Shown: positions 10,980 to 13,467 of the stretch, piece after piece
Layout: the number at the start of each line of letters is the position of its first letter
Position numbering within the stretch: position 1 is the stretch's first letter
Assembly (NCBI GenBank): GCA_021818645.1
Contig: JAKATS010000058.1
Span: 1 to 13,716, forward strand
Direction of reading: 5' to 3'
DNA: 13,716 nucleotides
From: Acidobacteriota bacterium
Lineage (GTDB): Bacteria; Acidobacteriota; Terriglobia; Terriglobales; SCQP01
The notes under the pieces: model-generated
The model's database searches: none
What the model was told of the DNA's origin: nothing
Seen by the model: only the letters and a program-made list of their open reading frames with translations
Program-made: the position numbers and the translations under genes

Positions 10980-13241
10980 TCAGGCCACCGTGGCCGCCGC
11001 TGCGGGAGCGGAGATGCGGGTGTAGCAGCTATGCGCGGCATCAATGAACAGCTCGGCTTCATCGAGCTGCAGGCGGGCGGCCTCGGCATCGGAGGCGGCG
11101 CCGGCGCGGGCATGGGCGGCGAATAAATACTGCGCGAATTTACCGCCGACGAAAGGATCAAAGAATTTGCGGGTATCGTAATAGCGGGCGCGGAACTCGC
11201 TCACGATGCGAGCGGGGTCATCGGGCAGCGGGCCGAGTTCGCGACGCACCAGGGCTTTGGCGGCACGCACCATGGCGAGGTAAGCGCGGCGGGCGGCGCC
11301 GGCGGCATCGCCAGCCTCGAGCGCGAGATGCGCCTCGAAGGCTTCGCGCTCGGCGGCGGCCAGCTCGAACTCGACCGCGGAGACCATTTCGCCGGCGCAT
11401 TCACCGGTGCCCATGTCGTCGAGCGAATAGACGCGCGGATCGCCCCAGTCGCTGAAATCACCGGGCGGCGGCTGGACCAGATCTTCCAGCATTTTTTTCA
11501 GCTCGGCCCGGCCCAGCCGGCGGGTAAATTCCGCAAAGCTTTCAGCGGGCTGGCGTTCGGCATGAAAGCGGGCGGTCAGGCGTTCGACCGCGGCGGGCAC
11601 GTGCTTGGAGGGCAGCGCCATGACCGCAGCGCCATAGGCGCCGGCGTTGTGTTCCCACTCGCCGCCCAGCACCAGTTGAAAATGCGGGACGGCATAGCCG
11701 CCGGACTTGCGGCTGACGCCGTAAAAGCCAAGATCGGAGATGTGATGCTGGCCGCAGCTATTGAAACAGCCGCTGATTTTAAGATGCAATTGCCGCACCT
11801 CGGCGGGCTGCGAGGCCATAGAGGGCTGCAGCCGCGAGCGCAGCTCGCGGGCCAGGCCGCGGGAAGCGGAAATGCCAAGCTTGCAGGTATCGGTGCCGGG
11901 ACAGGAGACGATATCGCCGAGCCCGCCGGCGCCGGCTTCGGCCAGATGAGCGGGCCCCAGCGCGGCATAGAGTTCAGATAAATCCGCGCCGCTGACCCAG
12001 CGCAGCACCAGATTCTGCTCGACGGTGGTGCGGACGGTTTCGCGGGTGAAGCGGCGGGCCAGGTCGGCGAGGGCGCGCAACTGGGGGGCGGTAATGTCGC
12101 CGAGCGGGAGCTTGAGGGTGACGGTGAAATGGCCGGGCAATTTCTGCGGGCGCACATTGGTGCGCAGCCATTCAAGGAATTCCGGGCTGCCGGTGACGGG
12201 CAGCGGGCCGGCGGGGCGCAGCGGCGCCTCGGCGAAGTCCGCGGCGGGGGCGACGAAATCGGTCCAGCGCGGATCAGGAGTGAGCTGCGTCAGCTCGGCC
12301 TGGACCAGCTCGCGGAATTTTTCGATGCCCAGATCCTGCACGAGGAATTTGAAGCGGGCCCGGTTGCGGTTTTTCTTTTCGCCCAGACGGGCGAAGACCC
12401 GGCCGATGGCCTGGGAGAGCGGAAGGATTTCCTCGACCGGAACGAAATCACTGTAGAGCTTGGCCTGATAGGGCACGGCGCCGAGGCCGCCGCCCACCCA
12501 GACCTCAAAACCACGCTGGGGTTCGCCAGCGTGCGAGCCAAGGGCCGGCCGCACGCGCGCGACAAAACCCAGGTCATGCAACTTGACGAGCCCGCAGGCA
12601 TGCTGGCCGCAGCCGCTGAAGGCGGGCTTGAACTTGCGGCCGAATTCCTGGCAGTCGGGATGGCCGAGCAGAAACCGGAACAGCGCCTGAGCGTAAGGCG
12701 TGACGTCAAACGACTCATCGGCGCAGACGCCGGCGTAGGGGCAGGCGGTAATGTTGCGCACGCCGTTGCCGCAGGCCTCGCGGGTGGTGATACCGACGGC
12801 AGCCAGTCGGCGCATGACGGCGGGAGTGTCCTCGATATGGACGTAATGGAGCTGGAAATCCTGGCGGGTGGTGACGTGGCCGATGCCGTCGGAATATTCC
12901 TCGGCCAGATCGGCGATGGTTTCGAGCTGGGCCGCGTCCATGCCGCCGCCGGGAAATTTGATGCGCTGCATGCCGGGAGCATCCCAGACGGTGCTGACGC
13001 CCTTGCTGGGCTTATCGGCGTAGGGCAACACCTGCAGCGCCCGGCCGTCATGGCGCTGGCCGTTGTCGTAGCGCTGGCCATAGACGCCGCGGCGCAGCCG
13101 GGTTTCGGCGAAGAGCTTTTCATCGAGCTTGCCGGTTTTGCGCAGGTTGATTTCCGACTCGAAGACGTCAATTTCCTGCGCCAGCGCCGGCGGCAATTGC
13201 GGTTCGAGCCGCTGTTTCCAGATTTCGTTATGAGATTTCAT
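10980..13241 (-). CDS. Ferredoxin-type siroheme sulfite (or nitrite) reductase with C-terminal helical extension
   Basis: The protein has 753 residues. It reduces sulfite to sulfide (or nitrite to ammonia) with six electrons, using siroheme coupled to a 4Fe-4S cluster. Both cluster motifs are present: CPGTDTC (457-463) and CFNSC (502-506). Active-site basic residues are visible in TTRQ (Arg126) and RKFK (Lys203, Lys205). A second Lys in RKFK is typical of sulfite reductases, whereas nitrite reductases usually have Asn there. The first half also carries the pseudo-symmetric motif SGCGQHACGL (209-218). Related enzymes are usually about 550-600 residues; residues about 605-753 are an extra Ala/Glu/Arg-rich helical region. 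AAGGA lies 12 nt before the ATG. The leader contains a Cys-rich reading frame and a terminator, which supports a role in cysteine synthesis. Nitrite activity cannot be ruled out from sequence. Confidence 0.9.
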   Translation of the reverse strand: MKSHNEIWKQRLEPQLPPALAQEIDVFESEINLRKTGKLDEKLFAETRLRRGVYGQRYDNGQRHDGRALQVLPYADKPSKGVSTVWDAPGMQRIKFPGGGMDAAQLETIADLAEEYSDGIGHVTTRQDFQLHYVHIEDTPAVMRRLAAVGITTREACGNGVRNITACPYAGVCADESFDVTPYAQALFRFLLGHPDCQEFGRKFKPAFSGCGQHACGLVKLHDLGFVARVRPALGSHAGEPQRGFEVWVGGGLGAVPYQAKLYSDFVPVEEILPLSQAIGRVFARLGEKKNRNRARFKFLVQDLGIEKFRELVQAELTQLTPDPRWTDFVAPAADFAEAPLRPAGPLPVTGSPEFLEWLRTNVRPQKLPGHFTVTLKLPLGDITAPQLRALADLARRFTRETVRTTVEQNLVLRWVSGADLSELYAALGPAHLAEAGAGGLGDIVSCPGTDTCKLGISASRGLARELRSRLQPSMASQPAEVRQLHLKISGCFNSCGQHHISDLGFYGVSRKSGGYAVPHFQLVLGGEWEHNAGAYGAAVMALPSKHVPAAVERLTARFHAERQPAESFAEFTRRLGRAELKKMLEDLVQPPPGDFSDWGDPRVYSLDDMGTGECAGEMVSAVEFELAAAEREAFEAHLALEAGDAAGAARRAYLAMVRAAKALVRRELGPLPDDPARIVSEFRARYYDTRKFFDPFVGGKFAQYLFAAHARAGAASDAEAARLQLDEAELFIDAAHSCYTRISAPAAAATVA

Positions 13242-13262: not shown

Positions 13263-13295
13263 AAAAACAAAAAACCCATCGCCGGGGGCGACGGG
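13263..13295 (-). terminator. Strong intrinsic terminator in the leader of the sulfite reductase gene
   Basis: On the minus strand CCCGTCGCC (13295-13287) pairs fully with GGCGATGGG (13283-13275), including one G-U pair, around a CCC loop. TTTTTTGTTTTT (13274-13263) follows directly. It ends 21 nt before the ATG of the gene it precedes, and no minus-strand protein gene lies upstream in the window. It must therefore act as an attenuator of sulfite reductase and not as the end of another unit. Confidence 0.88.
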
Positions 13296-13403
13296 GTGGC
13301 ATGCGAAATTCAGTTTCAGGCTGAAGGCTTACGCACCCCGGAAGGCCGGCATGATACAGGGACAACACGGCATCAGAGCCGCGGCCGGCGAAGTGACGTA
13401 AGC
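13275..13403 (-). promoter_or_regulatory. Attenuator RNA with mutually exclusive 1:2, 2:3 and 3:4 pairings
   Basis: In minus-strand order the pairings are as follows. The 1:2 hairpin joins GCTTACG (13403-13397) to CGTAAGC (13333-13327), CACTTC (13395-13390) to GGGGTG (13339-13334, two G-U pairs), and GCCGGC (13389-13384) to GCCGGC (13350-13345). The 2:3 antiterminator joins CGGGGTG (13340-13334) to CACCCCG (13298-13292). The 3:4 pairing is the terminator (13295-13275). Segment 2 cannot serve both 1:2 and 2:3, and four bases of segment 3 (13295-13292) are shared by antiterminator and terminator. A small TTCAG/CTGAA hairpin (13325-13309) fills the 2:3 loop. The stop codon of the leader peptide lies in the 3' arm of 1:2. 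Confidence 0.75.
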
Positions 13404-13424
13404 GAAATGAAGAGCCGGAGACAT
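13329..13424 (-). CDS. Cysteine-rich leader peptide (predicted cysteine attenuator)
   Basis: This is a 31-codon reading frame from ATG 13424 to TAA 13329. It begins MSPALHFAYVTSPAAALM and then has PCCPCIMPAFRGA. Three Cys codons (all TGT) fall within four codons at 13367-13356, although Cys is normally rare. It starts about 7 nt after the predicted transcription start, so translation would be nearly leaderless; GGA lies about 10 nt upstream. An inner ATG (codon 18) just before the Cys run could also be used. A ribosome halted at the Cys codons would block segment 1 of the attenuator RNA and leave segment 2 free. A ribosome reaching the stop would cover segment 2. The peptide is probably not functional itself. 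Translation has not been shown. Confidence 0.72.
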   Translation of the reverse strand: MSPALHFAYVTSPAAALMPCCPCIMPAFRGA

Positions 13425-13437
13425 GCGAATCAATTCC

Positions 13438-13467
13438 ATTTTCGCAGCAACGCAGCGAATGTGTCAA
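13438..13467 (-). promoter_or_regulatory. Promoter of the sulfite reductase operon
   Basis: On the minus strand a perfect -35 box TTGACA (13467-13462) is followed, 18 bp later, by GAAAAT (13443-13438). GAAAAT matches the -10 consensus at 4 of 6 positions and is preceded by an extended TGC. The transcript would start near 13431, about 7 nt before the leader peptide ATG and 190 nt before sulfite reductase. Confidence 0.65.

Follow-up and report, generated by a model that had tools for sequence, protein, structure and literature searches.

In the trpL leader of E. coli, an ORF with codons for the product amino acid is followed by a mutually exclusive antiterminator and intrinsic terminator, and the thrL-type attenuators of the same organism possess a Thr/Ile-rich leader. 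In the case of cysteine, leaders with Cys runs have been described before cys operons of Actinobacteria including mycobacteria, where terminators were not found according to the accessible part of the source (Seliverstov 2005, PMC1262725). Mycobacterial leaders rich in Cys are also reported in the accessible text of PMC4633059; the original prediction for our locus had likewise pointed to poly-Cys leader frames in mycobacteria. Such poly-Cys leaderless ORFs were addressed by Canestrari 2020, as cited in the available portions of PMC9031893 and PMC13236596, and are termed translation attenuation in the latter. An intrinsic terminator in combination with Cys codons of an upstream ORF has been reported for uORFC-8-2 before cysS in Rhodobacterales, as far as the available text of PMC8632094 describes it. 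Regarding Acidobacteriota, almost none of the predicted attenuators possessed an assigned function according to the accessible part of a study from 2010 (PMC2965389), and attenuation is absent from the available portion of a paper on sulfur in this phylum (PMC8528874). A cysteine attenuator in Acidobacteriota was not found in searches of the open-access literature, PMC4833913 included, to which most subscription papers do not belong, hence absence is unproven; the original prediction had known of no such case either.

The present locus is situated in a window of 13,716 nucleotides, which is the whole stretch of DNA that was analyzed. The following features form the leader element and its downstream gene:

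13438..13467, minus strand: sigma-70-like promoter by motif match, TTGACA 13467-13462, 18-nt spacer, GAAAAT 13443-13438, with an extended -10.
ATG 13424 to TAA 13329, minus strand: leader ORF of 31 amino acids plus stop, MSPALHFAYVTSPAAALMPCCPCIMPAFRGA, from the ORF reading; a Cys-run ORF recurs in relatives.
13393..13403, minus strand: strand 1, predicted to pair with 13336-13327 as a protector hairpin if the leader is ribosome-free.
13356..13367, minus strand: regulatory codons TGT TGT CCC TGT (Cys-Cys-Pro-Cys), from the sequence, identical in the sister genome (L019).
13330..13347, minus strand: strand 2, antiterminator 5' arm from folding, core CGGGGTG 13340-13334, within the last leader codons.
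13287..13301, minus strand: strand 3, antiterminator 3' arm from folding, core CACCCCG 13298-13292; it shares bases with the 5' arm of the terminator.
13275..13295, minus strand: intrinsic terminator stem-loop CCCGTCGCC-CCC-GGCGATGGG (strands 3:4), then T-run 13274-13269, from sequence, relatives and covariation.
10980..13241, minus strand: NirA-type nitrite/sulfite reductase of 753 amino acids, ATG at 13241, the predicted regulated gene, by Pfam NIR_SIR and NIR_SIR_ferr.

The 31-codon frame claimed before is hence present on the minus strand, and its three TGT in four codon positions (13367-13365, 13364-13362 and 13358-13356, with CCC in between) form a non-contiguous Cys run, CCPC. The promoter-like site directly upstream, which had been called a good promoter, shows 10 of 12 matches, while 0.2 such sites are expected per shuffle of the 617-base region. 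Transcription might start near 13431, approximately 7 nt 5' of the ATG at 13424. A second in-frame ATG at 13439 would lengthen the ORF; 13424 is the likelier start, because 13439 overlaps the -10 hexamer. No ribosome-binding site is evident 5' of the ATG at 13424. The downstream gene is a nitrite/sulfite reductase of the NirA type as judged by Pfam, and the NCBIfam NirA model matches it below its cut-off; sulfite reductase supplies sulfide for cysteine. The stem-loop CCCGTCGCC-CCC-GGCGATGGG, followed by TTTTTTGTTTTT, begins 33 bases past the leader stop and sits between the leader ORF and the reductase gene. A divergent tRNA-His lies on the other side of the element. At 150-1094, the window also codes for a protein whose CytoC_RC domain is that of the cytochrome c subunit of photosynthetic reaction centres.

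The original prediction had left the switch itself unlocated. It can be assigned to the intrinsic terminator at 13295-13275 and an antiterminator formed by 13347-13330 with 13301-13287, which are mutually exclusive. The core CGGGGTG in the last ORF codons is complementary to CACCCCG, which takes in the start of the terminator, while 13403-13393 can be predicted to pair with 13336-13327 and so to mask strand 2. This arrangement matches the four strands known from trp-type attenuators, and on the level of sequence the element agrees with the definition of this type. It is very probably a ribosome-mediated transcription attenuator sensing charged tRNA-Cys. The ORF, its Cys codons, the terminator, the exclusive pairings, the recurrence in relatives and the association with sulfur genes, on which this assignment is based, can be read from the sequences. 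Compared to E. coli trpL, the order of product codons, antiterminator and terminator is alike, whereas the window element is predicted to sense Cys instead of Trp, may have a near-leaderless start and is unrelated in sequence. With the mycobacterial poly-Cys leaderless ORFs it shares the Cys run near the stop codon and the position upstream of cys genes; like theirs, its leader would begin close to the RNA 5' end if the proposed +1 about 7 nt before the ATG is correct. In contrast to them it has a terminator and antiterminator, and it belongs to another phylum and precedes other genes.

The proposed mechanism would work as follows. RNA polymerase would start near 13431, and a ribosome would translate the leader co-transcriptionally. 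If Cys-tRNA is plentiful, the ribosome would reach the stop codon at 13329 and cover strand 2 (13347-13330), thereby permitting 3:4 pairing; the terminator at 13295-13275 would then form and end transcription upstream of the sulfite reductase gene. Under a shortage of Cys-tRNA, the ribosome would stall at TGT TGT CCC TGT (13367-13356) and leave strand 2 free, which would capture strand 3 first, block the terminator and permit transcription of the gene. In case that no ribosome is present, strand 1 (13403-13393) could mask strand 2, hence termination would be the default. The transcription start, the translation of the ORF, the stalling and the response to cysteine are what we infer from this architecture.

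Folding calculations are consistent with such a switch. The antiterminator of the window has -19.6 kcal/mol, a value equalled by 1.5% of 200 shuffles. For further calculations the modelled ribosome shielded the RNA as far as 15 nt beyond the initial base of the A-site codon, and the fraction of strand 3 paired with strand 2 was taken for transcripts whose 3' end lies in the terminator loop. This 2:3 pairing in the window amounts to 0.77 for a ribosome stalled on the first Cys codon, 0.44 on the last one, 0.00 at the stop codon and 0.10 in the ribosome-free state; the gain from a stall at the last Cys is thus modest. E. coli trpL behaves likewise with 0.56, 0.55, 0.02 and 0.00 for first codon, last codon, stop and no ribosome, respectively. 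The analysis was extended to 28 loci including the window, which remained after L022, L068, L089 and L095 had been removed by hand and loci with a spacing above 80 nt by rule. Their mean values are 0.65 and 0.63 at the first and last Cys, 0.004 at the stop codon and 0.35 without ribosome, and stalling lifts the pairing by more than 0.3 above the stop state in 27 of them. Since the ribosome-free mean is 0.35 over the 28 loci compared to 0.10 in the window, the protector hairpin is not general. The pairing just before terminator completion was adopted as measure after equilibrium folding gave no separation: with the full leader the terminator is preferred in nearly all ribosome states, with means between 0.84 and 0.95 and with values of 0.70 to 0.99 in the window. 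A switch is seen for L030 and L050 alone among the 28 loci, and for E. coli trp, too, the terminator probabilities, here 0.92 to 0.95, fail to separate the ribosome states. Because the equilibrium prefers the terminator, kinetic control, i.e. the order of events during transcription, would be required.

The match between the arms is also found across the 28 loci. Strand 2 with the terminator 5' arm reaches a mean of -18.7 kcal/mol, compared to -3.4 for the spacer, which is shorter, however. In 17 of the 28 loci, strand 2 pairs better than shuffled versions of itself at z <= -1.645; in the other 11 it does not. Permuted partners give -15.9 kcal/mol and 0 of 5000 permutations reach the value of the own terminator arm, a test that is confounded by the relatedness of the 28 sequences, which are not independent. 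Covariation of the terminator helix is significant, with 13 cells changed on both sides and pairing kept compared to 5.5 for shuffles, none of the 500 reaching this number, whereas the number of such pairs is matched by 20 of 500 shuffles. Sliding the terminator by -1 column gives 14 such cells, but only 51% of the cells are then paired. The antiterminator shows no significant covariation when it is scored by fixed columns (71.4% paired, 93 of 500 shuffles as high), and the alignment holds at least two antiterminator pairing registers, of the GCCGGCGTGTGG and TTCTGGGGATGGGGT types, with the window in another one.

A comparison of leaders before homologous reductase genes had been proposed both as a check and as a way to refute the prediction. 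At least 80 loci encode a relative, the best matches being listed. The near set comprises the window and L019-L059 (42 loci), of which 39 with at least 140 nt upstream were testable; the border at L059 was chosen after a first look at the leaders. L028, L054 and L059 as well as L098, one of 39 farther loci, were left out due to too short upstream sequences, identical upstream regions were entered once, and L003, L004 and L005, being the same as L019, L021 and L038, were counted once. Among the matches listed, an ORF with at least three Cys in six codons occurs in 29 of the 39 near upstream regions compared to 1.24 expected from dinucleotide shuffles, and at least four Cys are found in 18 of 39 compared to 0.10 expected. 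The Cys-run leader hence recurs while the remaining peptide drifts, the opposite of the outcome that would have refuted the prediction. The ten near loci without a Cys leader are L020, L023, L025, L031, L036, L039, L051, L056, L057 and L058. Among the matches listed, the farther loci show the leader in 4 of 38 testable cases (0.80 expected) and lack it in 34, giving 33 of 77 compared to 2.04 expected for both sets pooled. When all 20 amino acids were compared at three of six codons, only Cys was in excess (29 observed, 1.5 expected); at four of six Leu (12 vs 2.1) and Val (7 vs 0.4) were in excess as well, as expected for TGT repeats translated in the other two frames. The sister genome L019, whose contig starts within the leader so that the start codon lies outside it, keeps PCCPC, both arms and the terminator, with drift between them and at the leader end, and loci of the same family have CCPC (L021) or CCCPC (L038).

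Two further observations were made among the reductase loci. Three loci from Anaerolineales of the Chloroflexota (L068, L089 and L095) show Cys-rich leaders, for example CACAVCMCTCMCC or CMCMACMCMCC, together with terminators before the same reductase; their antiterminator pairing is weaker, and it is absent in L095. The loci L020, L025, L031 and L117, in which the reductase gene has no Cys leader, have a common TGCAGTTC in a hairpin directly 5' of the gene, which is perhaps another control element.

Instead of acting on termination, the Cys codons might work via translation or Rho, i.e. a stalled ribosome would free the start site of the gene or block Rho, and the hairpin would be incidental. 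Mycobacteria provide a precedent, since their poly-Cys leaders are without terminators in the accessible text of PMC1262725 and were named translation attenuation in that of PMC13236596, and the leader in the window may, like the mycobacterial ones, start almost at the RNA 5' end. However, a strong hairpin with a T-tail (terminator of <= -15 kcal/mol) lies between leader and gene in 26 of the 29 leader-bearing near relatives among the matches listed, and such a terminator was detected in 1 of the 10 near loci lacking a Cys leader. The rule overlooked hairpins that the eye recognizes in L034 and L035, and these were scored as misses. Moreover, the terminator 5' arm is complementary to the segment directly 3' of the Cys codons. 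We therefore consider this explanation improbable compared to the trp-type attenuator.

The spacing and codon usage of the leaders point to the same attenuator. In the chosen 28 loci, the distance from the last Cys codon to the terminator is 53-67 nt (mean 61, SD 3.3), and the stop codon is located 22-48 nt from the terminator (SD 6.2). The Cys codons of the window are situated 60 nt from the terminator, compared to a distance of 54 nt in E. coli trpL for its Trp codons. The leader runs contain TGT and TGC in a ratio of 96:20 compared to 24:287 in the reductase genes of the same loci, and the TGT fraction is higher in leader than in gene in 28 of 28 loci. The remaining leader codons have no such bias for T in the third position (NNT:NNC 144:190). 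The rare codon TGT as regulatory codon would raise the sensitivity of the sensor.

The distribution of the element was analyzed with two models, the covariance model R1 of the element including the Cys codons, and R2, which was derived from the segment 3' of the Cys run only, in order to lessen circularity; their E-values are rough due to short calibration. Of the genomes of the class, R1 matches in 120 of 250 and R2 in 126 of 299; a single genome has up to six sites by R1 and up to seven by R2, aspartokinase sites included. Sixty regions corresponding to 61 R2 matches were fetched, none containing a training core. They were taken down the R2 match list and are mostly new (L261, L294 and L307 were previously in the set), hence they are non-random and mutually related. 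At the start of these matches, at least three Cys in six codons were found in 32 of 61 compared to 0.66 expected. When the downstream genes were typed by local BLAST against typed references, Cys runs occurred before 9 of 10 CysD, 11 of 12 rhodanese and 4 of 5 short NirA-type reductase genes, as well as before the single long NirA and the single sulfonate-binding protein. Siroheme synthase (0 of 2) and an outer-membrane receptor (0 of 1) stayed below the threshold, these three carrying two Cys. Altogether, 26 of 32 matches before sulfur-type genes show Cys runs vs 0 of 20 before aspartokinase (Fisher 3.7e-9, kinship ignored). Among nine R2 matches outside the typed classes six have Cys runs, including those before ATP sulfurylase (L280), a sulfate-binding protein (L263) and a small rhodanese (L305). 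The R1 set has Cys runs in 36 of 42 matches, a value that is biased since R1 contains the Cys codons.

In the reading as a regulon that is taken up below, Cys-run leaders with terminators precede genes for sulfite reductases, CysD, CysH, siroheme synthase and ATP sulfurylase, and further for sulfate/sulfonate binding proteins, TauE exporters, rhodaneses, peroxiredoxins, outer-membrane receptors and an encapsulin. Among these, the TauE/SafE exporters, peroxiredoxin, Porin_5, CarboxypepD_reg/OMP receptors and the SrpI-like encapsulin were found behind R1 sites. The gene start may be far from the site, namely 469 nt in case of the encapsulin and 201 nt for one receptor. Phylum-wide, R1 matches in 41 of 297 genomes, 19 of them outside the class, and at least three Cys in six codons are present in 11 of 14 sites outside and 6 of 6 inside the class among 20 such sites; the Cys runs before the CysH genes (L311 and L321) comprise six and seven residues. 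L319, which is counted among the 11, lies before a DAHP synthase gene and reads WYWW in another frame; its Cys count is therefore probably incidental. Compared to uORFC-8-2, which has two tandem Cys codons with UGC dominant and belongs to one gene, that of cysteinyl-tRNA synthetase in Alphaproteobacteria, the Acidobacteriota sites share Cys codons of an upstream ORF, an intrinsic terminator and the predicted ribosome-mediated attenuation. They differ by the dominance of TGT, by several sites per genome and by the position of many of them before sulfur-assimilation genes, the window gene being NirA-type and not cysS.

The window's own genome, which is 54% complete, gave seven more weak R1 matches, the best of which (17 bits) lies inside a long ORF. 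The CysD profile matches at four places in this genome, and no short ORF with three Cys in six codons was found at the examined L207-L209; L208 matches the profile from residue 100 only, so the gene start may be elsewhere.

Some individual sites may be mentioned separately. A gene for a SrpI-like type 2A encapsulin is situated 469 nt 3' of a Cys-rich leader with terminator (L200), and encapsulin of this type is linked to sulfur metabolism. Cys-run leaders before outer-membrane receptors or porins (OMP_b-brl_4, Porin_5, Toluene_X) at L170, L181, L192 and L302 mark these proteins as candidate uptake routes for sulfur compounds, and similar receptors at L186 and L194 have only two Cys in six codons. 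Peroxiredoxin genes, named by Pfam for L184 and by eye for L185, L201 and L322-L327 (from the taxonomic order to which the window belongs), follow leaders with four to six clustered Cys.

The same RNA frame was also found with other codons. Aspartokinase loci (L176, L179, L183, L197, L248, L250, L251, L254, L255, L257-L260, L265, L267, L268, L270-L272, L274, L275, L277, L288 and L293; the genes of L179, L183 and L197 were named by eye) have leaders such as VMTTIATKRITSKSTTTTMKKTMTASGDGRNS in L179, which are rich in Thr/Ile/Met/Lys in 20 of 20 cases of the R2 set and are followed by the same frame of terminator and antiterminator. These leaders would represent a thrL-like attenuator. They resemble the E. 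coli thrL-type by their Thr/Ile-rich leaders, and differ from it in that one RNA model, which covers strands 2, 3 and 4, matches both them and the Cys sites of the class. A homoserine dehydrogenase gene (L304) has a Thr/Ser-rich leader, and overlapping ORFs with CWW and WYWW occur before anthranilate synthase (L317) and DAHP synthase (L319), which are perhaps Trp attenuators.

These findings bear on the assumption that the ORF encodes a small functional Cys-rich protein with a metal or redox role and no sensor function. CCPC and CxxC-like patterns resemble metal ligands. However, number and order of Cys vary (CCPC, CACCC, CCCCTC, CICCMCC), the length ranges from about 15 to 50 amino acids, the sole recurrent residues past the run are those encoded by the RNA arm, and the aspartokinase leaders hold the RNA frame while Thr/Ile/Met/Lys replace Cys; a protein function is hence very improbable. 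A ligand-binding RNA in the leader, i.e. a riboswitch that does not respond to charged tRNA-Cys and makes the ORF incidental, deserves equally little credence. A terminator with a competing hairpin would fit such an RNA, too. Yet at gathering score Rfam reports tRNA only in the whole window and no family in the leader, where two weak and implausible matches (E up to 5) appear below this score, the sequence between the arms is poorly conserved, and the codon runs follow the product of the downstream gene. Finally, a chance ORF before an unrelated terminator could be imagined from the window alone, in which an ORF with at least three Cys in six codons arises within 300 nt upstream in 4% of dinucleotide shuffles and terminator-like sites appear 0.9 times per shuffled region, but it is hardly credible given the recurrence, the terminators, the Cys runs of the R2 set and the sulfur-gene association in relatives, the match of the window by R1 (E 9e-10) and R2 (E 2e-6), though it is in both training sets, and the divergent tRNA-His as neighbour, owing to which no upstream gene ends in the hairpin.

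Collectively, the terminator/antiterminator pair, its recurrence in relatives and the sulfur genes downstream support the leader-peptide attenuator of the original prediction, which was right in its reading, and the case is stronger and wider than was known then. The element would be a cysteine version with intrinsic terminator in a phylum for which none was found described, and part of a dispersed set. Relatives carry the same device before many sulfur genes; hence, these bacteria probably sense cysteine shortage via the ribosome itself. We further regard it as somewhat more probable than not that Acidobacteriota control a cysteine regulon by dispersed attenuators of the trp type, which would replace or accompany a CysB-like protein and are widespread in one class and present in some genomes from elsewhere in the phylum, and that one chassis is re-addressed by its codons, with Thr/Ile/Met/Lys before aspartokinase and a Cys version tuned by the rare TGT.

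Such an attenuator would give sulfur assimilation a sensor in a dominant soil phylum. Our data suggest that attenuation may serve as a dispersed regulon and not as a single-operon device, and that outer-membrane receptors, rhodanese, peroxiredoxin and perhaps the encapsulin are tied to the cysteine supply. Moreover, the occurrence of one RNA frame with different codons offers a natural series for testing how codon choice sets the response.
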